Positions 4,075 to 31,746 of a stretch of DNA of 64,000 nucleotides are shown here, piece by piece. Made by a program: the position numbers and the translations under genes. Source of the DNA: Methanofollis formosanus (lineage in GTDB: Archaea > Halobacteriota > Methanomicrobia > Methanomicrobiales > Methanofollaceae); contig NZ_CP037968.1 in the NCBI RefSeq assembly GCF_019633745.1, forward strand, positions 998,789 to 1,062,788, given 5' to 3'. The notes under the pieces were generated by a model. The model saw only the letters and a program-made list of their open reading frames with translations. It had not been told where the DNA came from and ran no database searches. Numbering within the stretch: the stretch's first letter is position 1; each line of letters starts with the position of its first letter.

Positions 4075-7000
4075 ATGGAATCAAAAAAAAATCAACCCTA
4101 CAAATTATCTCGACATACTCATCCAGACAGGGCGATGAAAAGAGGAATGCTTCTCTTCTTCATCCTCCTCGCCGGCCTCCTCCTCGTGGCGCCGGCAATG
4201 GCTGGCCCCCAGACCGGCACGACCGAGTTGACGATCACTAAACTCGCCAAAGACGGATCGGTGATCGCACAGAAAACCGTCGATTACGAATGGATGGAAA
4301 AGAACCTGCCGGTACTGGGGGACGGGAAGACCCACTGGTATATGCAGGGACCGACCTTTGACGAGGACAACAAATGGGATCCTTCGGAATCGGTGAACGT
4401 CGACAGCCGCGATTACGGCGCACCGAAAGGGACCGATGTCAGGGATCTCTGTGACCTTGTCGGCGGGATGAGTCCCGGAGACGAGATCAGGATCGAATCC
4501 CCGGACGGTTTTTACAAGACGTTCGGGTACGAGAACGTGTACGACCCCAAGCCGCGCCAGGGGCCGATGGTGATCTGCTGGTACATTGGCGAGGAATCGA
4601 TCACCGGAGACTACCAGGGTGTGGGCTATCCCCCCGACTACTTCGTCGGGATGCGCCTCCTCTTCTATGCCGACACCTCGACCAACCCCTGGGGCAGACA
4701 CGTCTTCGGCCACTCCGATATGCAGGCATGCCTCGACGAAAAATACTGGCACTATTATAACGGCATATGGCCGGCGACAAGCGGACTCTCAGTAAAGAAT
4801 GTCGGTGAGGTCACCATCTACAGCCAGGACGAAGGCCCGGCGTACGGCAGCCTCACCGTCACTTCGGCACCTGAAGGTGCGACCGTCTTCGTGGACTTCT
4901 CAGACACCGGCAACACGACAAACACCACCTTCACCTCAGTCCTGGCCGGGAAGCATACGGTCACCGTACGCAAGAACGGGTACCTTGATGCAGAGCAGAC
5001 CGTGACCGTGCCGGCAGACGGGGACGCCTCTCTTCATTTCGACCTGAAAAAGGCGACAGGAGAATGGTACGTCGATCCCTCCGGCAACGGCACCTTCGAT
5101 ACCATCCAGAAGGCAGTCGACGCCGCCCACGAGGGCGACACGATCATCATCAGAAACGGGACATACCGGGAAAATGTCGATGTAGACAAACGCCTTCTCA
5201 TCACCTCCGAGTACGGGAAGGACACGACTATCGTGAGGGTCGCAGAAACCCACAGCCAGGACGACAATGTCTTTGACGTGACCGCCGACGGGGTGGTCAT
5301 CCGCGGCCTGACCCTGCGAGACGCAGAACTGGGCGGGTCAGGAGCGGTCTTCCACGGCACCTCGGGAGGACTGATCGAGGACGTCCGGTGCACCAACAAC
5401 AGTTACGGCATCTCCCTGCGAGGAGCGACCCATACGGTCGTCAGGAACGTATCGACCACCGACTGCTACCGGGGGGTCTACCTGACCGGCGGTGCGAACG
5501 AAAACCGGATCGAAGGTAGCGAGGTGAGTTGGAACGCCGATTACGGGATCTGGCTGGAAAGTTCGCACAACAACATCATCACCCGCAACAACGCCTCCGG
5601 GGCGGAGGGCGGCGGCGGCCTGAACTTCAGGGCGTCCAACAACAACCTCGTTACCAACAACACCGTCGACAGTTATCTCCAGGAAGGCGGGTACGGGATC
5701 ACCCTCGAGCACGGGTCGCAGAACAACACCATCTACCTCAACACCTTCCAGGGATGGTGTCCGGCAAGCGTCAGGCCGGGACAGGTCAACACCTGGAACA
5801 CCACCCGTCCGGCCACCTATGTCTATCATGGAAAGATCCATACCGGGAGGATGGGCAACTACTTTGAGCCGGGGCCGTTGAATAAGGGTTACACCGGCAC
5901 CGACGAGGACGGGGACGGCATCGGCGACACGCCCTTCCCGATCTCCCGGTGCGACGACTTCGACTATTATCCGCTCATCGAACCGGTGGCAAACTACACT
6001 CTCGGGGTATCGTCCCCGGTTCTCTCCACCATCTCGGTCGGGTCGACATCCGCGGCCGTCACGCCGGGGACGAGACTGACACTCAGCGCCGTTGCCTATG
6101 ACCAGTACGGTACCGAGATACCTGAAACATCCTTCACCTGGACCAGCAGCAACGAGACGGTGGGGACGATCGGGCAGGACGGTGCATTTGTCGCCCATGA
6201 GGTCGGGGCCACGGTGATCACCGCGGCGTCGGGCACGGTGGAAGGGAAGATGACCATGACCGTGGCCAGACCGGGCATCGTTCACGGGCCGTACATCACC
6301 GGGACGACCAGGACGGAGACGACGATCAGCTGGAAGAGCGCCGTCCCGACGGTCGGGCAGGTGGACTATGCCCCGGCGTCCGGGTACGTTCCCGGTTCCT
6401 ACGCCCACACGGTCACCGACACCGAGGAGTCCTGCCTCCACCACGTCGTCCTCACCGGGCTTGAAGCCGGGACGACCTATCATTACCGCGTGAGGGCCGG
6501 GCAGAATACGACCCGCGATTTCACCTTCCAGACATTCCCCGATACCGGAGAACCGTTCACGTTCATCGTGTACAGCGACTCGCAGGAACAGAAGCCATAT
6601 TATACACAACTGGAGAGGCACGGAATGGTCGCAGAGCGGATCGCAGAAGAGGAGGGGGACGCCGTCTTCGTCCTCCTTGTCGGCGATACGGTCAGCGAAG
6701 TGAATAATCCGGACGAATGGGACCGGTTCTTTGCGGCCGGTGGGGCGATGTTCGCGAACACCACTCTTTACACCGCCCTCGGGAACCACGAGAACAACAG
6801 AAGCATCTATTATGAGACCTTCGCTCTGCCGCAGTGGTACTCTTTTGACTGCGGCGACCTCCATGTGACGGTGCTGGACTCCAATAGCATGAAGGGCAGT
6901 CAGATGGCGAAGCAGACGGCCTGGTTCAAGGACGACCTGGCGGCGGCCGACGATGCACGCTGGACAGTCGCCGCTTTCCACCAGCCGCCGTACCACTCGG

Positions 7001-8205
7001 GCGAGGTCCATGGTCAGGGATGGCCTGACGAGGCGTGGCGGGAGACCGTCGAGGAGAGAGGGGTAGACGTCATCTTCAACGGGGACGTCCATTCATACCA
7101 GCGGTACCTGGTCAACGGCACGCAGTACATCATCGCGGCGACCGGCGGCGGGATGCAGTACCCACTCAAAGAGGAGAAGGAGCCTGGATACCAGGCTGGC
7201 ATGGAATATATCCTGGGCTATGAGCGGGTGCAGGTGGACCCGGCGAAAGGGACGGTTACGATGGAGTTCGTGCCGGTGGCCGGGGTCTCGGAGGACAGCA
7301 GCGAGATCACGAAGGTCTATCCGCCGGGCGAGGTCTTCGACCGGGTGGTGCTCGGTCAGAGCGTGGGGCCCGACCTGGCGCCGGTGACGATCGCGACCGA
7401 CGGCCCGGCGGTGGCCGGGGAGGATGCCACGGTGGTGGTGACGGTCGAGAATATCGGCGGGACCGCGGCCGGGGCCTTCGCGGTCAACCTCACAGTGGAC
7501 GGTGCGGCCCTCGGGAAGCAGGAGGCCGCAGGTCTTCTTGCCGGCGAGAGGGCGACCTTCGCCTTCTCCTGGAAACCGGAAAGCCAGGGCCAGTACACCT
7601 TTGTAGCGGTGGTCGAAGGCCCGGCTGAAGAGGCGGCCGTCGAGAACAATCAGATGGTACAGCAGATCGCTGTCCTCTCGCCGGACGAGAACCCGGCCTT
7701 CAAAGAGGGAGCGATCAAACTTGCCCCAGGCTGGAACCTTGTTTCGGTCCCGAAGCAGTTGGCGCCGGGCAGTGACACGGCCCTGGTCTTCGCGGGCGTA
7801 GAGTCTGCCGGGCATTCGCTCTGTACCTTTGACGCCGGGACGCAGCGCTGGCAGGCCCTGGGCCCGGACGATCCCGTCACCCCCCTCACCGGGGTGCTCG
7901 TCTATGCCGGAGACGCGGCCGCCGTGCCCCTGACCTTCGACACCGATCCGGTCCATCTCCCGCCGGCGAAGCGGCTCTCGAAGGGCTGGAACCTGATAGG
8001 CATTTCAGGGACCGACACCGAACCTGCGGCCCTCGCCCTCGTCTCGGCGGAAGGGCGGTGGGAGCGGTGCGTCGGCTACGACGCCCTGCGGCAGATCTAC
8101 GAGACGCCGGTGACGGCCGACGCCGCCGGCCGCGTCCTCTTCCCGGGCAAGGGCTACTGGCTCGGAGCGAGTGAGAACGGCACCCTTGCGGGAACCGCGG
8201 TCTGA
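4075..8205 (+). CDS. giant secreted surface protein with beta-helix and metallophosphoesterase
   Basis: 1376 aa. Rough domain order: signal peptide (MKRGMLLFFILLAGLLLV, residues 21-44); a methanogen surface domain with WMEKNLPVLGDGKTHWYMQG (about 45-255); a PEGA domain (260-325); a NosD/CASH-type parallel beta-helix with many NNT sequons (330-645); a Big_2 Ig-like domain (655-735); an Fn3-like domain plus calcineurin-type metallophosphoesterase of the purple acid phosphatase kind (740-1080; VGDT, GNHEN, FHQPPYHSG, NGDVHSYQ); CARDB (1095-1205); and a C-terminal domain shared with three neighbours (1215-1376). Start 4075 has AGGA eight bases upstream and shares its MESK beginning with the gene at 21840. 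ATG 4135 would give a more ordinary signal peptide. The protein is predicted to be extracellular; the phosphatase substrate is unknown. Confidence 0.85.
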   Translation: MESKKNQPYKLSRHTHPDRAMKRGMLLFFILLAGLLLVAPAMAGPQTGTTELTITKLAKDGSVIAQKTVDYEWMEKNLPVLGDGKTHWYMQGPTFDEDNKWDPSESVNVDSRDYGAPKGTDVRDLCDLVGGMSPGDEIRIESPDGFYKTFGYENVYDPKPRQGPMVICWYIGEESITGDYQGVGYPPDYFVGMRLLFYADTSTNPWGRHVFGHSDMQACLDEKYWHYYNGIWPATSGLSVKNVGEVTIYSQDEGPAYGSLTVTSAPEGATVFVDFSDTGNTTNTTFTSVLAGKHTVTVRKNGYLDAEQTVTVPADGDASLHFDLKKATGEWYVDPSGNGTFDTIQKAVDAAHEGDTIIIRNGTYRENVDVDKRLLITSEYGKDTTIVRVAETHSQDDNVFDVTADGVVIRGLTLRDAELGGSGAVFHGTSGGLIEDVRCTNNSYGISLRGATHTVVRNVSTTDCYRGVYLTGGANENRIEGSEVSWNADYGIWLESSHNNIITRNNASGAEGGGGLNFRASNNNLVTNNTVDSYLQEGGYGITLEHGSQNNTIYLNTFQGWCPASVRPGQVNTWNTTRPATYVYHGKIHTGRMGNYFEPGPLNKGYTGTDEDGDGIGDTPFPISRCDDFDYYPLIEPVANYTLGVSSPVLSTISVGSTSAAVTPGTRLTLSAVAYDQYGTEIPETSFTWTSSNETVGTIGQDGAFVAHEVGATVITAASGTVEGKMTMTVARPGIVHGPYITGTTRTETTISWKSAVPTVGQVDYAPASGYVPGSYAHTVTDTEESCLHHVVLTGLEAGTTYHYRVRAGQNTTRDFTFQTFPDTGEPFTFIVYSDSQEQKPYYTQLERHGMVAERIAEEEGDAVFVLLVGDTVSEVNNPDEWDRFFAAGGAMFANTTLYTALGNHENNRSIYYETFALPQWYSFDCGDLHVTVLDSNSMKGSQMAKQTAWFKDDLAAADDARWTVAAFHQPPYHSGEVHGQGWPDEAWRETVEERGVDVIFNGDVHSYQRYLVNGTQYIIAATGGGMQYPLKEEKEPGYQAGMEYILGYERVQVDPAKGTVTMEFVPVAGVSEDSSEITKVYPPGEVFDRVVLGQSVGPDLAPVTIATDGPAVAGEDATVVVTVENIGGTAAGAFAVNLTVDGAALGKQEAAGLLAGERATFAFSWKPESQGQYTFVAVVEGPAEEAAVENNQMVQQIAVLSPDENPAFKEGAIKLAPGWNLVSVPKQLAPGSDTALVFAGVESAGHSLCTFDAGTQRWQALGPDDPVTPLTGVLVYAGDAAAVPLTFDTDPVHLPPAKRLSKGWNLIGISGTDTEPAALALVSAEGRWERCVGYDALRQIYETPVTADAAGRVLFPGKGYWLGASENGTLAGTAV

Positions 8206-8224: not shown

Positions 8225-8656
8225 CGCGCAGAATACAAATCAGATTATTTTATTCTTTTTTCGTGCCATAATGCCCAAAACATCGAATGGGATCCATCCA
8301 ATAGAGATAAATGCCACAATTACAATAATACGGACAAGCCGGAGTGGAATCCCGACCTTTTCAGAGCAACAGAGATCTTTCACGCGCCTTTGAGGCCCCG
8401 TTGCGGTCAAACGGGTAAAGGCAATTTAGTTAATATAATTTACACCTCCATGAAAAGAGATTTATAACTCGCCCGATCGACGTTCACGTATCTAAAAACC
8501 AACCGGAAGTGAAACCATGAGTTTACGTCGTGCGATCCTGAGAATGAAAAATCCCAAAGCGCTGCCTCTCCAGTGCCCTCGCAGGGCAGGGGCAGAAGTT
8601 CGGTCCGTGGCGGCCTTCCGCCACGCCGCATCCTCTTTTTCCGTTCGGTGATATCG
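8218..8656 (+). promoter_or_regulatory. duplicated promoter and structured leader, copy 1
   Basis: 439 bp, matched without a gap by 16466-16904. A BRE/TATA box (AAAAGAGATTTATAAC, 8453-8468) predicts an RNA start near 8490, hence a leader of roughly 165 nt. Two helices can form. P1 pairs 8562-8568 with 8589-8595 and 8574-8579 with 8583-8588 (TGCCCT-CGC-AGGGCA). P2 is an 8-bp stem, 8606-8613 with 8618-8625. A pyrimidine tract (8631-8642) and a ribosome site GGTGAT (8647-8652) follow. A 44-codon ORF (8517-8651) ends inside that ribosome site. The two copies keep both hairpins. Confidence 0.7.
8453..8468 (+). promoter_or_regulatory. BRE/TATA promoter of the 2227-aa surface gene
   Basis: AAAAGAGATTTATAAC: a purine-rich BRE directly before TTTATAAC, the canonical archaeal form. 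It is identical in the duplicate at 16701-16716. Confidence 0.75.
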
Positions 8657-11600
8657 ATGAATAAATCAACTGGAATTATCTGTCTTATTCTGCTTACCCT
8701 CCTCATCGCCCCCGCTGCAGCGGCGACGCTGTATGTCGACGACAACGGCGGCGAAGGGATCTACACGACCATCGGCGAGGCCATCACGGCCGCCGCCGAT
8801 GGAGACTGCATCGTCGTCCGAGACGGCGCCTACACCGAGAACGTGCAGGTGGACAAACAACTCTGCATCCGCTCCGAGAACGGCGCGTCGGCCGTCACCG
8901 TCACCGCCGCAGCCGCCACAAAACCGGTCTTCAACCTCGCCGCCAACGGCGTGACCATCGAAGGCTTCACGGTCTGCGGACCGGGTGACTGGGGTGCGAT
9001 CGAGATCGTCGGGTTCAACGATTGCATCGTCAGGAAGAACGACTGTTCGGGTTGCTACAACGGCATTCACCTCGGCGGAGCGGCGACGAACAACACCATT
9101 GAGGAGAACTATTGCCACGAGAACGACAAGCGCGGCCTCAGTGTCCGCGACACCGCCAACGCCAACCTCCTCGTCAACAACACCTGTGAGAAGAACGCTG
9201 AAGACGAGATCTGCATCAAGGACGCAGCGAAGAACAACGTCATCTGGGCAAACGCCTTCAACGGGACTGTTGAACTCCGCACGGCGAACATCTATCACTC
9301 GTCGGCAGAGGTAGCCTACACCTATGGTTCGAAAGCCTTCACCGGCTATGTCGGGAACTATTACAGCCGGTACACCGGCGCGGACGCCGACACGAACGGT
9401 ATCGGCGACACACCCATGTCCTTTGGTACCTATAAGGACGAGTACCCGATGATGGGGCTCTGGCGGAACGGTGAGATCACCGGCGGGCCGACCACCCCGG
9501 TCGGTCCCACGACCCGGTACGTCGATGCCAGCGGGGGCACCGCCTACGCCACGATAAATGATGCAGTCGCGGCCTCGAACCCCGGCGACACCATCATCGT
9601 GAAGGACGGCGCCTACACCGAGAACGTGCAGGTGGACAAAGATCTCGTCATCCGCTCCGAGAACGGGGCGTCGGCCGTCACCGTCACCGCCGCAGCCGCC
9701 ACAAAACCGGTCTTCAACCTCGCCGCCAACGGCGTGAAGGTCGAAGGATTCACGGTCTGCGGCCCGAGCGACTGGGGTGGCGTGGAGATCGTCGGGTTCA
9801 ACGATTGCACGGTCAGGAAGAACGACGTTTCAGGCTGCTACAACGGCATTCACCTCGGCGGAGCTGCGACGAACAACACCGTCGATGAGAACTATTGCCA
9901 CGAGAACGACAAGCGCGGCCTCAGTGTCCGCGACACCGCCAACGTCAACCTCCTCGTCAACAACATCTGTGAGAAGAACGGAGAAGACGAGATCTGCATC
10001 AAGGACGCAGCGAAGAACAACATCATCTGGGCAAACGCCTTCAACGGAACCGTCGAACTCAGAACCGCAAACACCTACCACTCCCCAGAAGAAGTGGCCT
10101 ACATCTATGGTTCGAAAGCCTTCACCGGCTATGTCGGGAACTATTACACCCGGTACACCGGCGCGGACGCCGACACCAACGGCATCGGCGACACACCGAT
10201 GTCATTCGGCACCTACAAGGACGAGTACCCGATGATGGGGCTCTGGCGGAACGGTGAGATCACCGGCGGGCCGATTGGTGCGGCGACGCTGTATGTCGAC
10301 GACGACGGCGGCGAAGGCGTCTACACCACCATCTCTGATGCGGTCGCGGCCTCGAACGCCGGCGACACCGTCGTCGTCCGCGACGGCGCCTACACCGAGA
10401 ACGTGCAGGTGGACAAACAACTCTGCATCCGCTCCGAGAACGGCGCCGGCGCCGTGACGGTCACCGCCGCCTCCCCCACCAAACCGGTCTTCAACCTCGC
10501 CGCCAACGGCGTGACCCTCGAAGGCTTCACGTTCTGCGGCCCCAGTGACTGGGGCGGGATCGAGGTCGTCGGGTTCAATGACTGCACGGTCAGGAAGAAC
10601 GACGTTTCAGGCTGCTACAACGGCATTCACATCGGTGAAACAGCGACGAACAACACCGTCGAAGAAAACTATTGCCACGAGAACGACAAGCGTGGTCTCA
10701 GTGTCCGCGACACCGCAAACGCCAACATCCTCGTCAACAACACCTGCGAGAAGAACGGAGAGGACGAGATCTGCATCAAGGACGCAGCGAAGAACAACGT
10801 CATCTGGGCCAACGCCTTCAACGGAACCGTCGAACTCCGCACGGCGAACACCTACCACTCCCCAGAAGAAGTGGCCTACACCTACGGTACGAAGGCGTGC
10901 ACCGGCTATGTCGGGAACTACTACAGCCGGTACACCGGCGCGGACGCCGACACCAACGGTATCGGCGACACCTCGATGTCCTTTGGTACCTACAAGGACG
11001 ACTACCCCATGATGGGCCTCTGGCGGAACGGCGAGATCACCGGCGGGCCGGTGCAGGAGTCGAAGACATGGTATGTCGATAAAGCCGGCGGCGAGGGAGT
11101 CTACACCTCCATCGGGGCGGCGGTCACGGCCGCCGCCGAGGGTGACATTATCGTCGTCCGCGACGGCACCTACACCGAGAACGTGCAGGTGGACAAACAA
11201 CTCTGCATCAGCTCCGAGAACGGTGCGTCGACAGTCACCGTCACCGCTGCCTCCCCCACAAAACCGGCCTTCAACCTCGCCGCCGACGGCGTGATCCTCG
11301 AAGGCTTCACGGTCTGCGGCCCCAGTGACTGGGGCGGCATTGAGATCGTCGGGTTCAACGATTGCATCGTCAGGAAGAACGACTGTTCGGGGTGCTACAA
11401 CGGCATCCACATCGGCGGCAACGCCACCGGCAACACCGTCGAAGAGAATTATTGTCACGAGAACAACAAACGCGGTCTCAGTGTCCGCGACACCGCCAAC
11501 GCCAACATCCTCGTCAACAACACCTGCGAGAAGAACAACGACGACGAGATCTGCATCAAGGACGTAGCGAAGAACAACGTCATCTGGGCCAACACCTTCA

Positions 11601-14600
11601 ACGGAACCGTCGAACTCAGAACTGCAAACACCTATCACTCACCAGAAGAAGTAGCCTACACCTACGGCGCGAAGACCTTCACCGCCTATGTCGGGAATTA
11701 CTACAGCCGGTACACCGGCACCGACGCCGACACCAACGGCATCGGCGACACACCCATGTCCTTCGGCGTCTACAAGGACGAGTACCCGATGATGGGGCTC
11801 TGGAAGAACGGCACGATCACCGGCGGAAAGACGGGTCCGACGACGCTGTATGTCGACGACGACGGCAGCGCCGACTTCACCACCATCCAGGCGGCGATCA
11901 ACGCCTCCGCTGCAGGCGACATCATCATCGTCAGGGACGGCACCTACACCGAGAACGTGTACGTCGACAAAGAGCTGCTGACAATCAAGTCTGAGAACGG
12001 TTCTGCATCGACAAGGGTCCTAGCAGCGGACCCAGCCAACAATGTCTTTACGATTGTCAGGAAATCTGTGAATATCACGGGATTTACGATCAAGGGAGCA
12101 AACTCCTCAACTGCCTTCAAGGCAGGGGTCCGCATCTCTGCCTCATACTGCTCGGTCACAGAAAATACCTGTACTGATTGCATGCACGGCATCCAGATTA
12201 AGGGCAAAAATAACACCGTAACCGGGAACAACTGCGTTTACTGCCCTGGAAACGGCATCTGGCTAGATCAGTTCACCGGGAACAACACCGTGGTGAACAA
12301 CACCTGTTCCCACAGCCGTAACGGCATTAAACTGGACTATTCAAGTCACAATGAGATCTATCTCAATAATTTCGTGGACAATAAATATAACGAACTCTGT
12401 GGTTACCTTTCTGCCAGTACCTGGAACACCACCGAGCCGATAACCTACACATACCGCGGCAAGACGTTCACCAACTATCTCGGCAACTACTACGGACATT
12501 ACACCGGCAAGGATGCCTTCGGCGATGGGATCGGCGACACCCCCTATTTCGCCCGCAACAACGGCGGCACCGACCACGCACCCCTGATGGGGGCGTGGAA
12601 GGACGGCACCATAGAGTCGTCCGGCCCCCTGACCTTCTATGTCGACGATGACGGTGGCGAGGGAGTCTACACCACCATCAGCGAGGCGGTCAGAGAAGCC
12701 ATCGCAGGCGACATCATCATCATCAGGAACGGCACCTACACCGAGAACGTGCTGGTGGACAAACAACTCTGCATCCGCTCCGAGAACGGCACTTCGGCTG
12801 TCACCGTCACGGCCGCCGCCGCCTCCAAACCGGTCTTCGACGTCGATGCCGACGGTGTGACCGTGGAGGGCTTCACGATCCGCGGCCCGACGAACGAACA
12901 CATCGCGGGCATCGAGATCGTCGGATTCGACAACGGTACCTTCAGGAAGAACGACTGTTCGGGGTGCTACAACGGCATCCATCTCGGCGGCGACGCAACC
13001 GGCAACACCGTCGAGGAGAACTATTGTCACGATAACACCAGGCGCGGCATCAGTCTCCGCGACAGTGTCCACGACAACCTGGTCTTCAACAACATCTGCG
13101 AGCAGAACACCGACGACCAGATCTGCGTCAAGGACACACCGAAAGACAACATCATCTGGGCCAACACCTTCAAAGGCTCCGTCGAACTCCTCACGGCAAA
13201 CACCTACCATTCACCCGCCGAAGTGACCTACATCTACGGGCGTGACACCTTCACCAGTTATGTCGGGAACTATTACAGCCAGTACACCGGCACCGACGCC
13301 GACACGAACGGCATCGGCGACACTCCGATGTCCTTTGGCACCTATAAGGACGAGTACCCGATGATGGGCTCATGGCAGAACGGCACGATCACCGGCGGGC
13401 CGATGGATCCCAGAACCTGGTACGTCGACGACGACGGCAGCGCCGATTTCACCACCATCCAGGAAGCGCTCAACGAGGCATTGCCAGGCGATACGATCTC
13501 CGTCCTGCCGGGCACCTATTCAAGATTCAATGTCAACAAACCTCACATAACCATCATGAGCAGAGATGGGGCCGAATCGGTCATCGTGGACTGCCAGGGC
13601 AGTCAGGGCCTCAAGATCCCTGAAAGTAACAGTTATGACGCCACAGGGACAGTCCTCGACGACCTGACATTTCTCAATGGAAGGCCGAGTTTCTACTTAG
13701 GATATTATGGCCCGGCCAACGATTCGGTTGTCAGAAACTGCGTACTCGAAGAAATCGCACTCCAGGTCTATCTAAAAGGCAACAATCTCACGCTCGATGA
13801 TAACACTTTCATGAATACGACAGGATCTCCCGTATCTGTCGTGTATTTGAGAGATTCAACAGACTGCAACGTCATCGACAACACATTCATGAACATTACA
13901 ACGCGCTACGGGATCATGTACCTCCGCGGCACGGCTACTACCAACAACATCATCAGCGGAAACACCTTCGATACCGGCGGAAATTCCTTCTTCTTCCGTG
14001 AAGCCGGCGACGGGAACCAGATTTTCCTGAACAACAACGTCTCGAGCGTCGGCCTCCGGGAGGGCACCACCGCCCCGAACGTCACCCACTGGAACGCCAC
14101 CGCTCCCGTCACCTACACCTACCATGGCGTTGAACACACCGGCTATCTCGGGAACTTCTGGTCCAACTGCACCGGTGAGGACACCAACGACGACGGCGTC
14201 ATCAACACCGCGTACGAACTCCCCGACGGCCTGGGCACCGACCACGCACCCCTGATGGGCACCTGGCAGGATGGTGTGATCAGTGCATCTGCTCCCGAAC
14301 TCACCGCCATCACCCTCGTACCGGCCACCGCCGGTATGACCGTCGGTGACGGGCAGCAGTTCGCCGCAACCGCCTACGACCAGTACGGCGAGGAGATCGC
14401 AGAGACCGAGTTCACCTGGACGAGCAGCAACACCGCCGTCGCAACCGTGAATGCCACCGGATACGTCGAGGCGCTCACCGCCGGCACCGCGACCATCACC
14501 GCCACGAGCGGCGAGGTCAGTGGCACCGCCGAAGTGACGGTGAGCACCGAACCGTCTGAACTCACCACCATCGTCATCGCCCCGGCCACCGCCGGCATGA

Positions 14601-15340
14601 CCGTCGGTGACGGGCAGCAGTTCACCGCGACCGCCTACGACCAGTACGGCGAGGAGATCGCAGAGACCGCGTTCACCTGGACGAGCAGCAACACCGCCGT
14701 CGCAACCGTGAACGCCACCGGCTATGTCGAGGCAGTCGCTGCCGGCACCGCAACCATCACCGCCGCGAGCGGCGAGGTCAGCGGCACCGCCGAAGTGACG
14801 GTGAGTGCAGAACCGTCGTCCGAGTTCACCAGCATCACCCTCAAGAAGGGATGGAACTTTATCTCGGTCCCGCGGACCCTCGCACCGGGCACCGACACCG
14901 CCGCGATCTTCGCAGACGTCGAATCCGCCGGCCACTCCATCCTCGCCTTCGACGCCGCCGCAGGACTCTGGAAGACCCTCGGCGAGAACGACACGGTCAG
15001 CCCCCTCGACGGCATCTGGGTCTACGCCGCCCAGAGCACCACCGTCGAACTCACCGTCGACCCGGCAAAACCCGTGACACCGCCGACAAAGCACCTCTCC
15101 GAGGGATGGAACGCCATCGGGTTCTCAGACATCGAACCGGCAGCGGCAAAGGACGCACTCATCTCCGTCAAGGAGAACTGGGCCATCCTCATCGGCTATG
15201 ACGCCGAGAGCCAGGCATACGAACACTCGGCCATCAACGGCGCCGTCGGAAGCCACACCGACACCCTCCCCATGATACCGGGCAAGGGATACTGGCTGTT
15301 CCTCAGGGCGGACGGCACCCTGGCGGCCATCAGCACCTAA
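8657..15340 (+). CDS. giant secreted beta-helix repeat protein
   Basis: 2227 aa. A signal peptide (MNKSTGIICLILLTLLIAP, cut near AAAA-TLYVDD) is followed by seven NosD/CASH-type beta-helix modules of about 255-260 aa. Modules 1-4 and 6 are close copies; 5 and 7 are divergent. Each close copy carries the same cysteine series (VCGP, NDC, SGCYNG, NYCHEN, TCEKN, ICIKD) and a closing GYVGNYYSRYTGADADTNG motif. Two Big_2 Ig-like domains (about 1880-2050) and the shared C-terminal domain (KKGWNFISVP ... PGKGYWL) come last. There is no C-terminal membrane segment. Start 8657 follows GGTGAT by four bases; an upstream in-frame GTG (8573) lies inside the leader. The ligand is unknown. Confidence 0.85.
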   Translation: MNKSTGIICLILLTLLIAPAAAATLYVDDNGGEGIYTTIGEAITAAADGDCIVVRDGAYTENVQVDKQLCIRSENGASAVTVTAAAATKPVFNLAANGVTIEGFTVCGPGDWGAIEIVGFNDCIVRKNDCSGCYNGIHLGGAATNNTIEENYCHENDKRGLSVRDTANANLLVNNTCEKNAEDEICIKDAAKNNVIWANAFNGTVELRTANIYHSSAEVAYTYGSKAFTGYVGNYYSRYTGADADTNGIGDTPMSFGTYKDEYPMMGLWRNGEITGGPTTPVGPTTRYVDASGGTAYATINDAVAASNPGDTIIVKDGAYTENVQVDKDLVIRSENGASAVTVTAAAATKPVFNLAANGVKVEGFTVCGPSDWGGVEIVGFNDCTVRKNDVSGCYNGIHLGGAATNNTVDENYCHENDKRGLSVRDTANVNLLVNNICEKNGEDEICIKDAAKNNIIWANAFNGTVELRTANTYHSPEEVAYIYGSKAFTGYVGNYYTRYTGADADTNGIGDTPMSFGTYKDEYPMMGLWRNGEITGGPIGAATLYVDDDGGEGVYTTISDAVAASNAGDTVVVRDGAYTENVQVDKQLCIRSENGAGAVTVTAASPTKPVFNLAANGVTLEGFTFCGPSDWGGIEVVGFNDCTVRKNDVSGCYNGIHIGETATNNTVEENYCHENDKRGLSVRDTANANILVNNTCEKNGEDEICIKDAAKNNVIWANAFNGTVELRTANTYHSPEEVAYTYGTKACTGYVGNYYSRYTGADADTNGIGDTSMSFGTYKDDYPMMGLWRNGEITGGPVQESKTWYVDKAGGEGVYTSIGAAVTAAAEGDIIVVRDGTYTENVQVDKQLCISSENGASTVTVTAASPTKPAFNLAADGVILEGFTVCGPSDWGGIEIVGFNDCIVRKNDCSGCYNGIHIGGNATGNTVEENYCHENNKRGLSVRDTANANILVNNTCEKNNDDEICIKDVAKNNVIWANTFNGTVELRTANTYHSPEEVAYTYGAKTFTAYVGNYYSRYTGTDADTNGIGDTPMSFGVYKDEYPMMGLWKNGTITGGKTGPTTLYVDDDGSADFTTIQAAINASAAGDIIIVRDGTYTENVYVDKELLTIKSENGSASTRVLAADPANNVFTIVRKSVNITGFTIKGANSSTAFKAGVRISASYCSVTENTCTDCMHGIQIKGKNNTVTGNNCVYCPGNGIWLDQFTGNNTVVNNTCSHSRNGIKLDYSSHNEIYLNNFVDNKYNELCGYLSASTWNTTEPITYTYRGKTFTNYLGNYYGHYTGKDAFGDGIGDTPYFARNNGGTDHAPLMGAWKDGTIESSGPLTFYVDDDGGEGVYTTISEAVREAIAGDIIIIRNGTYTENVLVDKQLCIRSENGTSAVTVTAAAASKPVFDVDADGVTVEGFTIRGPTNEHIAGIEIVGFDNGTFRKNDCSGCYNGIHLGGDATGNTVEENYCHDNTRRGISLRDSVHDNLVFNNICEQNTDDQICVKDTPKDNIIWANTFKGSVELLTANTYHSPAEVTYIYGRDTFTSYVGNYYSQYTGTDADTNGIGDTPMSFGTYKDEYPMMGSWQNGTITGGPMDPRTWYVDDDGSADFTTIQEALNEALPGDTISVLPGTYSRFNVNKPHITIMSRDGAESVIVDCQGSQGLKIPESNSYDATGTVLDDLTFLNGRPSFYLGYYGPANDSVVRNCVLEEIALQVYLKGNNLTLDDNTFMNTTGSPVSVVYLRDSTDCNVIDNTFMNITTRYGIMYLRGTATTNNIISGNTFDTGGNSFFFREAGDGNQIFLNNNVSSVGLREGTTAPNVTHWNATAPVTYTYHGVEHTGYLGNFWSNCTGEDTNDDGVINTAYELPDGLGTDHAPLMGTWQDGVISASAPELTAITLVPATAGMTVGDGQQFAATAYDQYGEEIAETEFTWTSSNTAVATVNATGYVEALTAGTATITATSGEVSGTAEVTVSTEPSELTTIVIAPATAGMTVGDGQQFTATAYDQYGEEIAETAFTWTSSNTAVATVNATGYVEAVAAGTATITAASGEVSGTAEVTVSAEPSSEFTSITLKKGWNFISVPRTLAPGTDTAAIFADVESAGHSILAFDAAAGLWKTLGENDTVSPLDGIWVYAAQSTTVELTVDPAKPVTPPTKHLSEGWNAIGFSDIEPAAAKDALISVKENWAILIGYDAESQAYEHSAINGAVGSHTDTLPMIPGKGYWLFLRADGTLAAIST
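8726..13400 (+). repeat. tandem intragenic repeats of about 780 bp (beta-helix modules)
   Basis: Units begin near 8726, 9506, 10281, 11062, 11836 (diverged) and 12633, each opening with a variant of TLYVDDDGGEGVYTTI and closing with EYPMMGLWRNGEITGGP. Units 1-4 are nearly identical at DNA level over long stretches, which implies recent duplication or ongoing gene conversion. The same module occurs in the genes at 16905 and 23033. Confidence 0.85.
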
Positions 15341-15363
15341 TTTTTTTCGTGAGGAAGAAGACC

Positions 15364-16452
15364 ATGAAAAGAATCTCCATCGTTCTCATCATCGCCCTCG
15401 CACTCGTCACAGGTGTCATGGCGGCAGAAGAAGTGCCGCAGATGCCAGACGAGTACAAGGGCACCGTCACCATCGACGGCACACCCGCACCCGCGGGCAC
15501 GACCATCCTCGCCCTCATCGACGGCGAGGTCGCAGGGACCATCACCATCGACGAACCGGGCACCTTCGGCGGCGACAAAAACACCGACCAGAACCTCCCG
15601 GTCACCGGTTACGCCGACGACGTCGGCAAGACCGTCACCTTCACCGTTGGCGGCAAGGAAGCCGGGAAGGCAACCTTCCGCCCCGGCGAGGTGCACACCA
15701 TCGCCCTTGCAGCGAAGAGCGGCACCACGCCGACCCCGACCCCCGGCAGCAGCGGCGGCGGCGGGGGCGGCAGCCCCTCGAACCCCGCTCCGGTGAGAAC
15801 CGTCGCACCCTCCGTCGAGGCACCGGCAGCACCGGTCGTCGGCAGCACACCGCTCGCAACCTCCGCGACCGGCACCGTGGACGAGCCCGCAGCCGTCGTC
15901 TCATCAGACCGGATCGCAACCATCTCAGTACCTGAAGGAACCGCGGCCCACAACTCCGAAGGCACGCCCCTCGACGAGATCACCATCAGGCCCGCGTCAC
16001 CCGGCGAGGTGCCCGACGCCGCCGGCGTGACCGGGTTCGTCGCAGCAGGCTATACCTACCTCTGCGGACCCGCCGGCGCAACCTTCGACCCCGCCATCAC
16101 CCTTACCTTCGAGATCCCGGCGGAGAAATGGAAAGACCTCAAAGAGGGTGACCTCACCGTCAGGTGGTACAACGCCGACGCAGGACGATGGGAAGAGATC
16201 CCGACCACCGTCGACTATGAGACCATGACCGTCACCGCCGAAGTCTCGCACTTCAGCACCTTCGCACTCTTCACCGCCGCACAAACGCCCTCCGCCGGAG
16301 ACGACGACCGCCCGGCAGCACAGGTCACCGACGCGAACGGTGTCGAGGCACCCCGCGGCGAGACGACAGACCGGACTCTCCCGATCGTCACGGGCGTCCT
16401 CCTCATCGTTGGCATCGCCGGTGCCGCGATCTACATGAAGAAGAAAGACTAA
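15364..16452 (+). CDS. membrane-anchored surface protein with ZU5-like domain
   Basis: 362 aa: signal peptide (MKRISIVLIIALALVTGVMA), a small Ig-like beta domain (about 20-115, carrier-like, GTVTIDGTPAPAGTTI), a low-complexity linker (TPTPTPGSSGGGGGG, then Pro/Ala-rich), and a domain of about 150 aa ending in TVTAEVSHFSTFALF that resembles ZU5/PGF-pre-PGF-type domains. One C-terminal membrane helix (LPIVTGVLLIVGIAGAAIY) and KKKD close it. It starts 23 bases after the giant gene with ribosome site GAGGAAGA, so the two are probably co-transcribed. The anchor and position suggest a cell-surface partner of the secreted giant; that is inference. Confidence 0.8.
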   Translation: MKRISIVLIIALALVTGVMAAEEVPQMPDEYKGTVTIDGTPAPAGTTILALIDGEVAGTITIDEPGTFGGDKNTDQNLPVTGYADDVGKTVTFTVGGKEAGKATFRPGEVHTIALAAKSGTTPTPTPGSSGGGGGGSPSNPAPVRTVAPSVEAPAAPVVGSTPLATSATGTVDEPAAVVSSDRIATISVPEGTAAHNSEGTPLDEITIRPASPGEVPDAAGVTGFVAAGYTYLCGPAGATFDPAITLTFEIPAEKWKDLKEGDLTVRWYNADAGRWEEIPTTVDYETMTVTAEVSHFSTFALFTAAQTPSAGDDDRPAAQVTDANGVEAPRGETTDRTLPIVTGVLLIVGIAGAAIYMKKKD

Positions 16453-16904: not shown

Positions 16905-19900
16905 ATGAATAAATCAACTGGAATTATCTGTCTTATTCTGCTCACCCTCCTCATCGCCCCCGCTGCAGCGGCGACGCTGTATGTCGACGACGACGGTGGC
17001 GAGGGAGTCTACACGACTATCGGGGCGGCGGTCACGGCTGCCGCCGATGGAGACGGCATCATCGTGAAGGACGGCACCTACACCGAGAACGTGCAGGTGG
17101 ACAAACTGCTCTGCATCTGCTCCGAGAACGGCGCCGGTGCAGTCACCGTCACCGCTGCCTCTCCCGCAAAACCAGTCTTCAACCTCGCCGCCAACGGCGT
17201 GACGGTCGAAGGATTCACGGTCTGCGGACCGGGCGACTGGGGCGGCGTGGAGATCGTCGGGTTCAAAGACTGCACCGTCAGGAAGAATGACGTTTCAGGC
17301 TGCTACAACGGCATTCACATCGGCGGCGACGCCTCAGGCAACACCGTTGAGGAGAACTATTGCCACGAGAACGACAAACGTGGTCTTAGTGTCCGCGACA
17401 CCGCTACCGGCAACCTCCTCTTCAACAACACCTGCGAGAAGAACGCCGAAGACCAGATCTGCATCAAGGACGCAGCGAATAACAATATCATCTGGGCCAA
17501 CGCCTTCAACGGCACTGTTGAACTCCGCACGGCGAACATCTATCACTCGTCGGCAGAGGTGACATACACCTATGGTTCGAAAGCGTGCACCGGCCATGTC
17601 GGCAACTATTACAGCCGGTACACCGGCGCAGACGCCGACACCAACGGCATCGGCGACACACCCATGTCCTTTGGTACCTATAAGGACGAGTACCCGATGA
17701 TGGGACTCTGGCGGAACGGCGAGATCACCGGCGGGCCCATCGACCCGGCCGACCTCGTCATTGCCATTGCGGGTGCGCCGGGCTGCACGGGGGAGGGTGC
17801 GGACGTTGCGTTCGAGGATACGGTGACGGTCACCAACAACGGGACCGCGACCGCAGAGGCGTTCTCGGTCTTTTTGTATGCCACTCTTACATCGGAGGAG
17901 GAGATCGTCGTCGGGAACCTGACCGTCGAGAGCCTTGCCGGCGGCGGGGCGGCGGCGGACCTCACGTTCACCTGGGAACCGCCGCGGCGCGAGATGAAGA
18001 TGCTGCGAGCGGTCGTCGATGCAGGTGAAGTGGTGACGGAGACGAACGAGACGAACAACGAGGCAACCTTCACCATCACGCCGCCCAGTTATGGTGGGAC
18101 GACCGAGGTCACCGTCATCAAACATGCAGAGAACGGCACCGTCGTCAACTCAACGACCGTGCATTTCAGATGGATGGAACGCAACCTCCCGGTCCTCGGC
18201 GACGGCAAGACCAGGTATTATCACCAGGGACCGGTCTTCGAGAACGAGTGGAAAATGGTCCATCCGAACGAGCCCTACGACAAGTGGAATCCGACCGAGG
18301 ACGTCAACCTCGTCGATTACGGCGTCATGAGAGGGACGGATGTCCGGGATCTCTGCGACCTCGTCGGTGGCATGACACCGGGCGACCGGATCACCGTCAG
18401 GGCACGGGACGGGTGGAAGGTGTCGTTCGGGTATGTGAATATCTATGAATACGAGGCAAGGCAGGGGCCTCTGGTCCTCACCTGGGAGGCCGACGGCAAA
18501 AAGGTGCCAGGAGGATACCGAGACGGGATGAGGGTCTTCTTCTTCGCCGACAACTCAACCAACCCGCACGGATGGCATGTCTTCGGCATCGACGACATGG
18601 TCAACTGTCTCAGGCCGTCAGACTGGCACTTCTACGAGGACGAACCATCACCCAAGGGTATTTCGACGAAGTTCGTCAAAGAGATCCATATCTATACCCG
18701 TGATCCACCGGCCGTCGAGCGGATCGTCGTCAAACCGGAACTGGCAGATGTCTTTGCCGGGGAGGTGCAGCAGTTCGTAGCCATATGCTACGACCAGTAC
18801 GACGATGTTATGAAGAATATCCCGGTCACCTGGTCGTTCAGCAACGAAACGGTCGGCGAGATCGAACAGGACGGACTGTACACAGGACACGCCATCGGTA
18901 CCGCTCACGTCGTCGCAACAGTAGAGGGCGTTAACGGGACCGCAACCGTCTTCCCGACCGAGATCGTTGCATGGGCAGACCCATGCGAGTCGGCCGCAGG
19001 ATGGACCGGGACGAACTTCTTGGTGAATGATGCCAAGTTCCATGAAGGAAGGAACAGCATCAGTTCGGGCTGGTCGACGAAGAATTCCCTGGCAGAGCGG
19101 ACGATCATCTTCCCGGAGAGGGCGACCACCCTCAGTTTCGACGCCTATGTGTACCTGGATAGGACCGTCGACGGAGACTGGGCGAAGATCTTCCTGGACG
19201 ACACGGAGATCGTCGAAGGAAAGAATGACGGGAGCATGTGGAAAAACTACGTCATCGACATCTCAGGATATGCACCGGGTGAGCACACCTTCAGGCTGCA
19301 GACCCATTTCAATGAGAGCAGCAGTAAATACCGGTACCTCAGCGTCGGTGTCGATGATATCAGGCTGATGGCGGCACGAGATGTTCCGACAGGGCCCCCG
19401 GTGGCGACGCTGTATGTCGACGACGACGGCGGGGATGGGATCTACACCACTATCTCCGATGCGGTCGCGGCCTCGAACGCCGGCGACACCATCGTCGTGA
19501 AGGACGGCGTCTACACCGAGAACGTGCTGGTGGACAAACTGCTCGTCATCCGCACCGAGAACGGCGCCGGCGCCGTGACCGTCACGGCCGCGACCACCGG
19601 CAAACCGGTCTTCGACGTCAACGCCGACGGCGTGACCGTCGAAGGCTTTGCGGTCCGCGGGCCGACCGACGAGCACGTCGCGGGCATCGAGATCGTCGGG
19701 TTCGACGACTGCATCGTCAGGAAGAACGACTGCGCCGGGTGCTACAACGGCATCCACCTCGGCGGCGACGCCACCGGCAACACCGTCGAAGAGAACTATT
19801 GTCACGAGAACAGCAAGCGCGGCCTCAGCCTCCGCGACACCGTCGCCGGCAATCTCGTCTTCAACAACACCTGCGAGAACAACGCTGAAGCCGAGATCTG

Positions 19901-21224
19901 CATCAAAGACTCGGCAAAGGGCAACACCGTCTGGGCCAACGCCTTCCTCGGCCCCGTCGAGATCAAGACCGCCAACACCTACCACTCGCCCGAAGAGGTG
20001 ACCTACACCTACCGCGGCGGCGAGTACACCGGCTACGTCGGGAACCACTACAGCAGATACACCGGCATCGACGACGACACAAACGGCATCGGCGACACCT
20101 CGATGTCCTTCGGCACCTACAAGGACGATTACCCGATGATGGGCGAGTGGCAGAATGGTGTGATCAGTGCACCTGCTCCCGAACTCACCACCATCACCCT
20201 CGACCCGACCACCGCCGGCATGACCGTCGGTGACGGCCGGCAGTTCACGGCGACCGCCCGCAACCAGTACGGCGAAGAGATCGCAGGGACCAAGTTCACC
20301 TGGACGAGCAGCAACAACGCCGTCGCAACCGTCAACGCTACCGGGTACGTCGAGGCGGTCGCCGCAGGCACCGCAACCATCACCGCCACGAGCGGCGAGG
20401 TCAGCGGAACCGCCGAGGTGACGGTGAGCCTCGCACCCGCAGAACTCACCACCATCGTCATCGAACCGGCCACCGCCAGCCTGACCGTCGGTGACGGCCG
20501 GCAGTTCACCGCCACCGCCCGCAACCAGTACGGCGAGGAGATCGCAGAGACCACGTTCACCTGGACGAGCAGCAACACTGCCGGCGCAACCGTCAACGCA
20601 ACCGGATACGTCGAGGCGGTCGCCGCGGGCACCGCGACCATCACCGCGACGAGTGGAGAGGTCAGCGGAACCGCCGAAGTGACGGTGAGTGCTGCACCTT
20701 CACCCGAATTCACCGCCCTCACTCTCAAGAAGGGATGGAACTTCGTCTCCGTCCCGCGGACCCTCGCACCCGGCAACGACACCGCTCTGATCTTCGCGGA
20801 CGTCGACTCCGCCGGCCACTCCATCCTCGCCTTCGACGCCGCCGCAGGACTCTGGAAGACCCTCGGCGAGAACGACATCGTCCGGCCCCTCGACGGCATC
20901 TGGGTCTACGCAGCAGAGAGCACCACCGTCGAAATCACCGTCGACCCCGCAAAACCCGCGACCCCCCCGACAAAGCACCTCGCAGAAGGATGGAACGCCA
21001 TCGGGTTCTCAGACATCGCGCCAGAACCCGCCAGAGACGCCCTCACATCCGTGAAAGACACCTGGGCCATCCTCATCGGATTCGACGCAGAAAAGCAGGC
21101 ATACGAACACTCGGCCATCAACGGCGCCACCGGCACCCACGCCGACACCTGCCCCATGATACCGGGCAAGGGATACTGGCTGTACATGCGTGCCGACGGA
21201 ACCCTGGCGGCCATCAGCACCTAA
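16905..21224 (+). CDS. giant secreted beta-helix/CARDB/Ig-like surface protein
   Basis: 1439 aa. The signal peptide is identical to that of the 8657 gene. Then follow one beta-helix module with the cysteine series (about 25-285), a CARDB domain (about 290-390), the methanogen surface domain with WMERNLPVLGDGKTRYYHQG (about 395-605), a Big_2 domain (610-690), a jelly-roll-like domain (about 690-825, WADPCESAAGWTG...), a second beta-helix module (830-1090), two Big_2 domains (1090-1265) and the shared C-terminal domain (1270-1439). It is a mosaic of modules found in its neighbours. Start 16905 follows GGTGAT. An oligo-T stop signal follows. No membrane anchor is present. Confidence 0.85.
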   Translation: MNKSTGIICLILLTLLIAPAAAATLYVDDDGGEGVYTTIGAAVTAAADGDGIIVKDGTYTENVQVDKLLCICSENGAGAVTVTAASPAKPVFNLAANGVTVEGFTVCGPGDWGGVEIVGFKDCTVRKNDVSGCYNGIHIGGDASGNTVEENYCHENDKRGLSVRDTATGNLLFNNTCEKNAEDQICIKDAANNNIIWANAFNGTVELRTANIYHSSAEVTYTYGSKACTGHVGNYYSRYTGADADTNGIGDTPMSFGTYKDEYPMMGLWRNGEITGGPIDPADLVIAIAGAPGCTGEGADVAFEDTVTVTNNGTATAEAFSVFLYATLTSEEEIVVGNLTVESLAGGGAAADLTFTWEPPRREMKMLRAVVDAGEVVTETNETNNEATFTITPPSYGGTTEVTVIKHAENGTVVNSTTVHFRWMERNLPVLGDGKTRYYHQGPVFENEWKMVHPNEPYDKWNPTEDVNLVDYGVMRGTDVRDLCDLVGGMTPGDRITVRARDGWKVSFGYVNIYEYEARQGPLVLTWEADGKKVPGGYRDGMRVFFFADNSTNPHGWHVFGIDDMVNCLRPSDWHFYEDEPSPKGISTKFVKEIHIYTRDPPAVERIVVKPELADVFAGEVQQFVAICYDQYDDVMKNIPVTWSFSNETVGEIEQDGLYTGHAIGTAHVVATVEGVNGTATVFPTEIVAWADPCESAAGWTGTNFLVNDAKFHEGRNSISSGWSTKNSLAERTIIFPERATTLSFDAYVYLDRTVDGDWAKIFLDDTEIVEGKNDGSMWKNYVIDISGYAPGEHTFRLQTHFNESSSKYRYLSVGVDDIRLMAARDVPTGPPVATLYVDDDGGDGIYTTISDAVAASNAGDTIVVKDGVYTENVLVDKLLVIRTENGAGAVTVTAATTGKPVFDVNADGVTVEGFAVRGPTDEHVAGIEIVGFDDCIVRKNDCAGCYNGIHLGGDATGNTVEENYCHENSKRGLSLRDTVAGNLVFNNTCENNAEAEICIKDSAKGNTVWANAFLGPVEIKTANTYHSPEEVTYTYRGGEYTGYVGNHYSRYTGIDDDTNGIGDTSMSFGTYKDDYPMMGEWQNGVISAPAPELTTITLDPTTAGMTVGDGRQFTATARNQYGEEIAGTKFTWTSSNNAVATVNATGYVEAVAAGTATITATSGEVSGTAEVTVSLAPAELTTIVIEPATASLTVGDGRQFTATARNQYGEEIAETTFTWTSSNTAGATVNATGYVEAVAAGTATITATSGEVSGTAEVTVSAAPSPEFTALTLKKGWNFVSVPRTLAPGNDTALIFADVDSAGHSILAFDAAAGLWKTLGENDIVRPLDGIWVYAAESTTVEITVDPAKPATPPTKHLAEGWNAIGFSDIAPEPARDALTSVKDTWAILIGFDAEKQAYEHSAINGATGTHADTCPMIPGKGYWLYMRADGTLAAIST

Positions 21225-21839: not shown

Positions 21840-23003
21840 ATGGAATCAAAATCCGGATTTCTGCTGATTGCAGTCTGCCTGTGCATCGCCCTGATGGCGG
21901 CACCGGCGAGCGCGGCAACAACGAGCGTGACGATCACGAAGTACGCTGACAACAACTACTCCGCAGTCGACCAGACCGAATCTCTGACATGGCAGGAGAT
22001 GCGGACCAATCTTTCCAACAAGTACAGCAACGGCCCAGTATATATGCAGGGTCCGACCTTCAACTCCAACGATCCGTGGGGCGACAGTGGCCAGAATATG
22101 ATCTGGTTCTGTGACCACAACGGTACTGCCGTCTCTGACCTCGTCGACAAAGTCGGGGGGATGAGCTCCGGCGATGAAGTTATGATCCAGTCAGACGACA
22201 ACTTTGCGGTCTACTTTGGATATGACAACGTCTACACCCCCCATTCCCGGCAGGGCGAAATGATTCTGACGTGGTGGGACGGGGACTATAGTTATGTGCC
22301 GAATTTCAGGTGGGGCATGCGCCTGTACTTCTACACCCCCCCAGACTCCTATGGTGTTGCCGATTCGCTCAACCTGACGCTCCGCGACATGGAAGCGGCC
22401 TTTGACCCGTGGTACCGTCACAACTATACCGACAGCAGCGGTAGCTGGCCGTCGGCAAAAGGGCTCTCGGCAAAGTACGTCGACAGGATTAAAGTCTACC
22501 CCCCGCACCGCTATGACTTCGCCACCGGCGGCGACACCGTCGAGTATGCGTACAAGGGCGGCGTCAACGCCACCCCCAGCACCAGGAACATGCCGAACAC
22601 CCCATTCACCAGCGCAAACATCGACGCCGATGACGGCGACGTTTACTGGTTCAACACTTCCACCAACGGCAATTATGCCGCCCAGCGCTTCGTCTTCAAC
22701 GTCACGGAGAGTGCGAGCAACATCGAGAAACTCAATGTCACCTGGGACGGCACCGGCAGCCACGACAACACCTCCGCGGACCAGGGCGCCACCACCTACA
22801 TCTGGAAGAGCGGCACCGGCTACGAGACCCTCTCCGGCGACATCACCTCAAACATCGGTGACTACGTCGTCAACGGTAATGTCACGGTGTTCGTGAAGCA
22901 GAACACGGCTCAGTTCTACGATGAAAACGATTGCGAGGATAAATTATCTCACATCGCAACTGACTACGTAAAGCTCGTGGTGACGCATCACCACACCAAC
23001 TAA
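21840..23003 (+). CDS. secreted surface protein, 387 aa
   Basis: A signal peptide (MESKSGFLLIAVCLCIALMA, cut near SAATTS) precedes a diverged version of the surface domain also seen in the genes at 4075 and 16905: YMQGPTF, DLVDKVGGMSSGDEV, FGYDNVYTPHSRQGEMILTW and KGLSAKYVDRIKVY are shared in order (about 25-225). The remaining 160 aa form a beta-rich domain with YDFATGGDTVEYAYKGG and many N-glycosylation sequons, ending in VKLVVTHHHTN. The ribosome site is GGAGAGGCGAG before ATG 21840. It lies 29 bases ahead of the next surface gene and is probably co-transcribed with it. Function unknown. Confidence 0.8.
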   Translation: MESKSGFLLIAVCLCIALMAAPASAATTSVTITKYADNNYSAVDQTESLTWQEMRTNLSNKYSNGPVYMQGPTFNSNDPWGDSGQNMIWFCDHNGTAVSDLVDKVGGMSSGDEVMIQSDDNFAVYFGYDNVYTPHSRQGEMILTWWDGDYSYVPNFRWGMRLYFYTPPDSYGVADSLNLTLRDMEAAFDPWYRHNYTDSSGSWPSAKGLSAKYVDRIKVYPPHRYDFATGGDTVEYAYKGGVNATPSTRNMPNTPFTSANIDADDGDVYWFNTSTNGNYAAQRFVFNVTESASNIEKLNVTWDGTGSHDNTSADQGATTYIWKSGTGYETLSGDITSNIGDYVVNGNVTVFVKQNTAQFYDENDCEDKLSHIATDYVKLVVTHHHTN

Positions 23004-23032
23004 CCCTTTTTTTCTTTTCTATGGTGATTTTC

Positions 23033-28449: not shown

Positions 28450-28520
28450 TCCGATTTTGCAACGTTTCGATATTCTTCAGGATGATCGTTCCATCTATCC
28501 CCGCCCGGTTCTTCTTCGTG

Positions 28521-31694: not shown

Positions 31695-31746
31695 CTCATA
31701 CCTCTTGGTGGTGAAGATATACAAACATTATTTAAAGCGCATCAGG

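Follow-up and report, generated by a model that had tools for sequence, protein, structure and literature searches.

A multi-module, probably secreted protein of Methanofollis formosanus

We analysed 64,000 nucleotides (the window; G000:C1:998789-1062788) of Methanofollis formosanus DSM 15483T, whose genome (G000) is a single contig of 2,965,921 bases. This archaeon is a hydrogenotrophic methanogen with a complete published genome (PMC9119062). The window contains the gene for P2, a putative secreted protein built largely of repeated beta-helix modules (Table 1). The longest P2 frame (8573-15340) encodes 2255 residues; translation likely starts at the ATG at 8657, ahead of a signal-peptide-like stretch, and the N-termini of the module proteins, judged by eye, resemble signal peptides. 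Inspection by eye showed no membrane anchor at the P2 C-terminus; the adjacent protein P5 ends with a hydrophobic stretch and KKKD. The original prediction, which described modules of about 780 bp repeated at least five times in one gene and recurring in two neighbours, proved right in this respect: five modules that carry a common signature (A1-A4 and A6) start in register within a single open frame, two more (B1 and B2) lie in the next large gene, P3 (16821-21224), and one (C2) lies in a third, P4. All four large surface proteins, P1, P2, P3 and P4, end in a shared domain about 170 residues long (GWNF-SVPRTLAPGND to GYWLF). For this domain, and for P5 and P6, a Pfam search at relaxed cut-off gave nothing useful.

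Table 1. Features of P2 and its neighbours, in window positions
Feature	Position	Strand	Basis
P1, beta-helix and purple-acid-phosphatase-like metallophosphatase; first gene of the cassette	4075..8205	+	Pfam, locus comparison
Upstream region and signal-peptide codons of P2	8218..8750	+	repeats a copy 8248 bp downstream, ahead of P3
P2, multi-module putative secreted protein	8657..15340	+	open reading frame, translation, start position; Pfam NosD x7, Big_2 x2
Signature module A1	8726..9511	+	repeat and module comparison, AlphaFold2
Cys107 codon of A1, stack rung one	9044..9046	+	AlphaFold2, alignment
Cys130 codon of A1, rung two, invariant (30/30)	9113..9115	+	AlphaFold2, alignment
Cys154 codon of A1, rung three	9185..9187	+	AlphaFold2, alignment
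Cys163 codon of A1, probably outward on PB1, invariant (30/30)	9212..9214	+	AlphaFold2, alignment
Signature module A2	9512..10285	+	repeat and module comparison, AlphaFold2 tandem model
Signature module A3	10286..11065	+	repeat and module comparison
Signature module A4	11066..11842	+	repeat and module comparison
Divergent NosD-like module A5d, lacking the signature residues	11843..12631	+	module comparison
Signature module A6	12632..13414	+	repeat and module comparison
Divergent NosD-like module A7d	13415..14296	+	module comparison
Two tandem Big_2 Ig-like domains (261-bp repeat, 91% matches)	14297..14817	+	repeat finding, Pfam
C-terminal domain, common to the surface proteins of the locus	14819..15337	+	no Pfam family at cut-off
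P5, secreted protein, C-terminal hydrophobic anchor (by eye), cassette member	15349..16452	+	translation, locus comparison
P3, signature modules B1 (16974-17747) and B2 (19407-20180), CARDB and Big_2 domains	16905..21224	+	Pfam, module comparison
P6, secreted cassette protein, no Pfam match	21840..23003	+	translation, locus comparison
P4, divergent beta-helix (23096-24106) and signature module C2 (24107-24928)	23021..25969	+	Pfam, module comparison

We modelled A1 with AlphaFold2 from an alignment of 32 sequences of the window and its locus. The model (predicted local distance difference test score, pLDDT, 93.2; predicted template modelling score, pTM, 0.90) is a closed right-handed beta-helix (RBH), in agreement with the Pfam NosD/Beta_helix matches and with a Z score of 23.5 to alginate lyase 6kfn, and the beta-helix fold that had been proposed for the modules is thus upheld. 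Among solved structures, the closest in fold are alginate lyases and epimerases, pectate lyase, pectin methylesterase and tailspikes. A viral fold library returned giant-virus and phage helices at low template modelling scores and nothing specific, and a PDB sequence search with P0006 returned nothing useful. We named the three sheets PB1 (strands 90-95, 112-117, 136-140, 160-164 and 182-184, in A1 module numbering), PB2 (77-79, 101-103, 124-126, 148-150 and 172-174) and PB3 (82-84, 106-108, 129-131, 153-155 and 177-179). An asparagine ladder (Asn105, 128, 152 and 176, each invariant in the 30 modules defined below) occupies the PB2-PB3 turn; the other turns carry the rows Cys100-Asn123-Asn147-Asn171 and Cys110-Asn133-Asn157. 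In a model of two modules (pLDDT 92.5, pTM 0.54), each has its own capping helix and the linker, residues 255-260, scores below 50. The modules are hence predicted to be separate capped domains, beads on a loose linker. Taken on its own, this structural reading is one that we hold with high confidence.

A probably outward strip on sheet PB1

We compared 30 signature modules, comprising the eight window copies, one from a paralog elsewhere in the same genome and 21 others; A5d, L068 and the fragment L067 were left out. His115, His131, Arg136, Ser139, Arg141, Cys163, Lys165 and Asp166 occur in every one. Residue 93 is Glu in 27 modules, Asp in two and Cys in one (C2), residue 183 is Glu in 26, Gln in two and Asp in two, and residue 142 is Asp in 28 and Asn in two. 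The outward set is intact in all eight window copies bar Glu93 in C2. In a second comparison, 12 signature rows (11 from the order Methanomicrobiales and one, L078, from outside it) were set against six generic relatives (L079-L083, L086). The 12 rows share the eight invariant residues and Trp174, and the generic relatives are almost without them; most asparagine-ladder residues and the glycines at 113 and 137 are common to both groups. The outward signature therefore distinguishes these modules from the methanogen NosD-like generic relatives compared.

In the A1 model, Glu93-His115-Ser139-Cys163-Glu183 forms a strip across five PB1 coils, flanked by Arg141 and Lys165, with Asp142 and Asp166 alongside. 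Polysaccharide lyases and epimerases of the beta-helix fold have their substrate groove on PB1. For the fucoidan lyase FdlA, the residues put forward as catalytic are Lys, His, Arg and Tyr (PMC9410043). For these reasons, the PB1 strip on the outer face is best read as a putative glycan-binding or catalytic site. P2 would then be a secreted adhesin-like surface protein, with capped beta-helix beads on short loose linkers, an Ig-like stalk and the shared C-terminal domain. The strip would most likely bind a glycan, acidic or sulfated, that belongs to the cell surface or to neighbours, and would perhaps act on it; the presence of several modules per chain may lend avidity. We lean slightly towards this whole explanation, glycan site included.

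Some considerations weigh against this explanation, of which the first concerns AlgG. By profile, AlgG (4nk6, 4ozy) is the best solved relative (E 2e-7 with A3, 2e-4 with A2); the fold is the same, and the alignment pairs Glu93 with AlgG Asp317 (a number deduced from the D317A entry). However, the catalytic residues His319 and Arg345 of AlgG align with Val95 and Gly118 of the module, and we rejected an AlgG-type C5-epimerase on these grounds. Second, sequence tools do not distinguish binding from catalysis. Third, the outward Cys163, which has His115, Ser139 and Glu as neighbours, could serve as a site for metal or as a reactive thiol. In its explicit form, this alternative has Cys163, His115, Glu93 and Glu183 bind Zn, Fe or Cu as a discrete outer-face site, or makes Cys163 a catalytic or redox thiol. 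The invariance of Cys163 and His115 on one outward strip would suit such a site, as would an acidic residue (Glu or Asp) at position 93 in 29 of the 30 modules and at 183 in 28, and NosD, a distant relative, carries a copper-binding annotation in Pfam. Ser139, however, separates His115 from Cys163 on the strip, and the flanking Arg141 and Lys165 fit anion binding better than metal. We consider a metal or thiol site unlikely.

Less likely again is that the modules are pure spacer, structural filler that extends the protein from the surface and has no site of its own. Beta-helix and Ig-like repeats are common stalk parts, and module number varies by species. An invariant polar outward set that is missing from generic helices of the same fold would nevertheless be unexpected in a spacer, and A5d, a divergent module of the very same protein, lacks that set.

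Returning to P2 as a putative glycan-binding protein, we compared it with described systems. Archaeal adhesin-like proteins of the methanogens Methanobrevibacter smithii and Methanosphaera stadtmanae are reported to carry several RBH domains per chain, up to seven, followed by Ig-like Big domains (PMC11532034). P2, a putative methanogen surface protein, has its parts in the same order, with RBH domains (by Pfam and AlphaFold2) followed by two Big_2 matches. Unlike them, it amplifies one RBH type with an invariant outward set and ends in a C-terminal domain of unassigned family. By this analogy P2 is best classed among the RBH-repeat adhesin-like surface proteins, its adhesion being putative.

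The module also matches PF05048 above cut-off, and NosD-like genes outside any nos operon have been reported from methanogens (PMC12904285). P2 scores 364.7 with TIGR04247 against a cut-off of 300, but that score is the sum of 12 stretches, the best of which covers 1-172 of 377. The sole NosZ model searched, TIGR04246, had no match in the genome. With neither a full-length single-domain TIGR04247 match nor a TIGR04246 match, we rejected the possibility that P2 is a true NosD.

A wider proposal, which we put forward tentatively and with considerable doubt, is that the signature module represents an undescribed extracellular family of glycan-active or glycan-binding beta-helices, so far found mainly in Methanomicrobiales. 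Its Glu-His-Ser-Cys-Glu strip with Arg, Lys and Asp would be an active site of a new kind, and eight such modules would have been strung over three adjacent surface proteins in a single species. The strip supplies a testable residue set for 'NosD-like' methanogen surface proteins, which are very common but uncharacterised. Should it be an active site, it would give a hint of which molecules these archaea bind or trim at the cell surface.

Cysteines along the beta-helix

The close copies had been described as keeping a fixed series of six or more cysteines. Each copy does carry 6-10, but only four columns (110, 130, 154 and 163) are full in 8/8 copies, and a fifth (100) holds Cys in 7/8; residues 84 and 107 vary among these copies, with Cys at 107 in 5/8. 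Shuffling residues within copies 2000 times, a procedure that ignores shared descent, never gave more than one column with Cys in 4/8. Across the 30 modules, Cys occupies residue 130, like 163, without exception, residue 110 in 28 (two Gly), residue 100 in 27 (three Gly), residue 107 in 24 (six Val) and residue 154 in 22 (five Val, two Phe, one Met).

Cys107, Cys130 and Cys154 are the mid-strand residues of successive PB3 strands, 23-24 residues apart, and form a stack three rungs long, bounded by Val83 before it and Phe178 after it. The expectation that the cysteines stack along one face is therefore correct for these three, one per coil, but not for Cys100 and Cys110, which lie in turns, or for Cys163, which lies on PB1. 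Since their neighbours Tyr129/His131 and Asp106/Ser108 are polar, Cys107, Cys130 and Cys154 probably face the core. Cys163, by contrast, probably points outward, because it stands between Ile162 and Ile164, which we take as inward.

The stack positions behave as packing positions, since aliphatic or aromatic residues replace the cysteines individually. We infer that the stack cysteines are buried free thiols that would contribute to core packing beside the asparagine ladders. Such a stack would be of a kind already published for FdlA, which has a five-residue buried cysteine ladder at the T2-PB3 juncture of coils 4-8, beneath the groove (PMC9410043). According to its authors, the ladder steadies the groove from below and may take no part in catalysis (PMC9410043). 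The A1 model aligns with the N-terminal domain of FdlA (7xz8) over 194 residues (Z 18.2, root-mean-square deviation 2.5, 12% identity). As in FdlA, the cysteines take one probably inward position of successive PB3 coils (strands 106-108, 129-131 and 153-155); unlike FdlA, the module has three rungs rather than five. Regular cysteine spacing in such helices hence need not imply redox or metal chemistry.

Some observations fit core packing poorly. Cys130 is invariant, beyond what plain packing needs, and the nine cysteine columns of A1 are middling in conservation overall (mean 0.63). Residues were assigned as inward or outward from the DSSP strand map together with the alternation of side chains rather than from measured distances.

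The original prediction had instead raised the possibility of a ladder of disulfides or metal running along the helix. The regular stack, with Cys at 130 and 154 in all eight window copies and at 107 in five, is what such a proposal has in its favour. However, Val, Phe or Met can take the place of Cys at residues 107 and 154 with Cys130 unchanged, which an obligate pair or a metal site would forbid; the stack is apparently buried and is just three rungs long. In addition, a search of the genome for the VKOR family gave no match (the search covered VKOR only; DsbA-type enzymes were not searched for), and the comparable ladder of FdlA is described as structural (PMC9410043). A ladder running the length of the whole protein was rejected, since the modules are separate and capped in the tandem model. 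We regard a disulfide or metal ladder as very improbable.

Cysteines in successive coils are also found in L080, a NosD-like module of the generic kind, and Cys makes up 0.95-2.4% of the other helix proteins listed from the M. formosanus genome. Two modules, L066 and L072, retain the outward set and have lost Cys100, Cys107, Cys110 and Cys154. We rejected a disulfide between Cys100 and Cys110, which are thus lost jointly in these two modules: A6 lacks Cys100 alone, and the strand map places the two residues at opposite ends of PB1.

Age, distribution and locus of the modules

The modules had been called near-identical, a description that the sequences do not bear out. The eight close modules (A1-A4, A6, B1, B2 and C2) share 65-86% identity in protein and 72-88% in DNA, and just 49-78% of their fourfold sites are identical; A5d and A7d, both without the signature, share 30-45% identity with them. 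Synonymous divergence (dS) is 0.34-0.44 among A1-A4 and 0.34-0.92 among all window copies, with the maximum between B1 and C2, and we therefore consider the close copies old. Non-synonymous divergence (dN; 0.07-0.25) is far below dS in every pair, indicating purifying selection. Identity along the pairs is uneven (for A1-A4, 58-98% per 20 codons), which would fit some past gene conversion. Between the genome's own single-copy paralog and its counterpart in the sister species G003, dS is 0.17, below that among A1-A4, and the longest exact repeat within 4000-26500 is 110 nt; on both counts we rejected recent copy-number slippage. Although the genome was assembled from 300-bp paired Illumina reads only (PMC9119062), it is hardly credible that the array is an assembly artefact or a collapsed repeat, because that longest repeat is shorter than one read and the differences between close copies amount to about 12% or more.

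We searched 232 genomes of the order with a profile of the module (E 1e-40 or better). Matches came from 21 genomes, or 20 once G123, whose match (L068) lacks the signature residues, is removed. M. formosanus has ten matches, A5d among them, three genomes (G003, G097 and G222) have two each and the rest one; eight of the 12 genomes of the genus match, M. formosanus counted. The other species searched have one or two modules each, and no module array was found in them. The paralog in M. formosanus is a single-module protein of 1207 residues, its module at 2781585-2782361 on the minus strand. In a tree of the modules, A1, A2, A3, A4 and B1 form one clade (100/100), and A6 branches next to it. 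B2 and C2 cluster with the paralog and the single-module proteins of sister species; support for several inner branches is low. Judged by dS, the copies in the array would predate the split from G003. Among known cases the expansion appears confined to this species; loss in sisters, faster evolution or transfer may lie behind this. The suggestion that module number can change thus applies between species, the array being present in this one only, but not to recent slippage, as dS marks the copies as old.

The genes flanking the locus (31-1383 and 29694-31724) neighbour each other across the genus. From match positions, the distance between the flanks is 28.8 kb here, 18.0 kb in G003, 14.7 kb in G008, 13.9 kb in G009 and 3.7-5.0 kb in G002, G004, G005 and G006. 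Window positions 1384-29693 are a hotspot, in which two constant flanks enclose 3.7 to 28.8 kb by species, with a cassette present or absent. The cassette sits at the same locus in the sister species G003, G008 and G009, where the interval consists of genes for a P1-type protein, a P6-type protein, a protein with one module (about 1200 residues) and a P5-type protein. No cassette protein type was found between the flanks in G002, G004, G005 and G006. In G010 and G011 a single-module gene adjoins the right flank and the left flank is on a separate contig, the contig of G001 stops within a P1-type gene, and the locus of G007 was not resolved in this comparison.

In M. formosanus, P2, P5 and P3 sit between P1 and P6, and this stretch looks like an extra insertion resembling a tandem duplication. 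From 8250 to about 8750, signal peptide included, the fronts of P2 and P3 are mostly 88-100% identical per 50 nt. This similarity is the mark of a tandem gene duplication or conversion, and it places the origin or homogenisation of the P2/P3 gene pair after that of the modules.

P1, P3, P6 and the single-module proteins of relatives have in common a secreted domain, about 200 residues long, whose motifs include NLPVLGDG and KGTDVRDLCDLVGGM; in the window it lies within 4075-5061, 17748-19406 and 21840-23003. A short P5-like gene at 26093-26665 is 93% identical to the P5-type gene (L036) of a second cassette of the same genome, at 2.78 Mb, and shares exact stretches of 110 and 107 nt with the window's P5 (from 15940 and 16072). 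Directly past a tRNA-Arg gene, a 157-bp unit is repeated in tandem (28498-29563; 6.8 copies, 72% matches), and a 306-bp direct repeat of 2.3 copies lies at 2077-2782.

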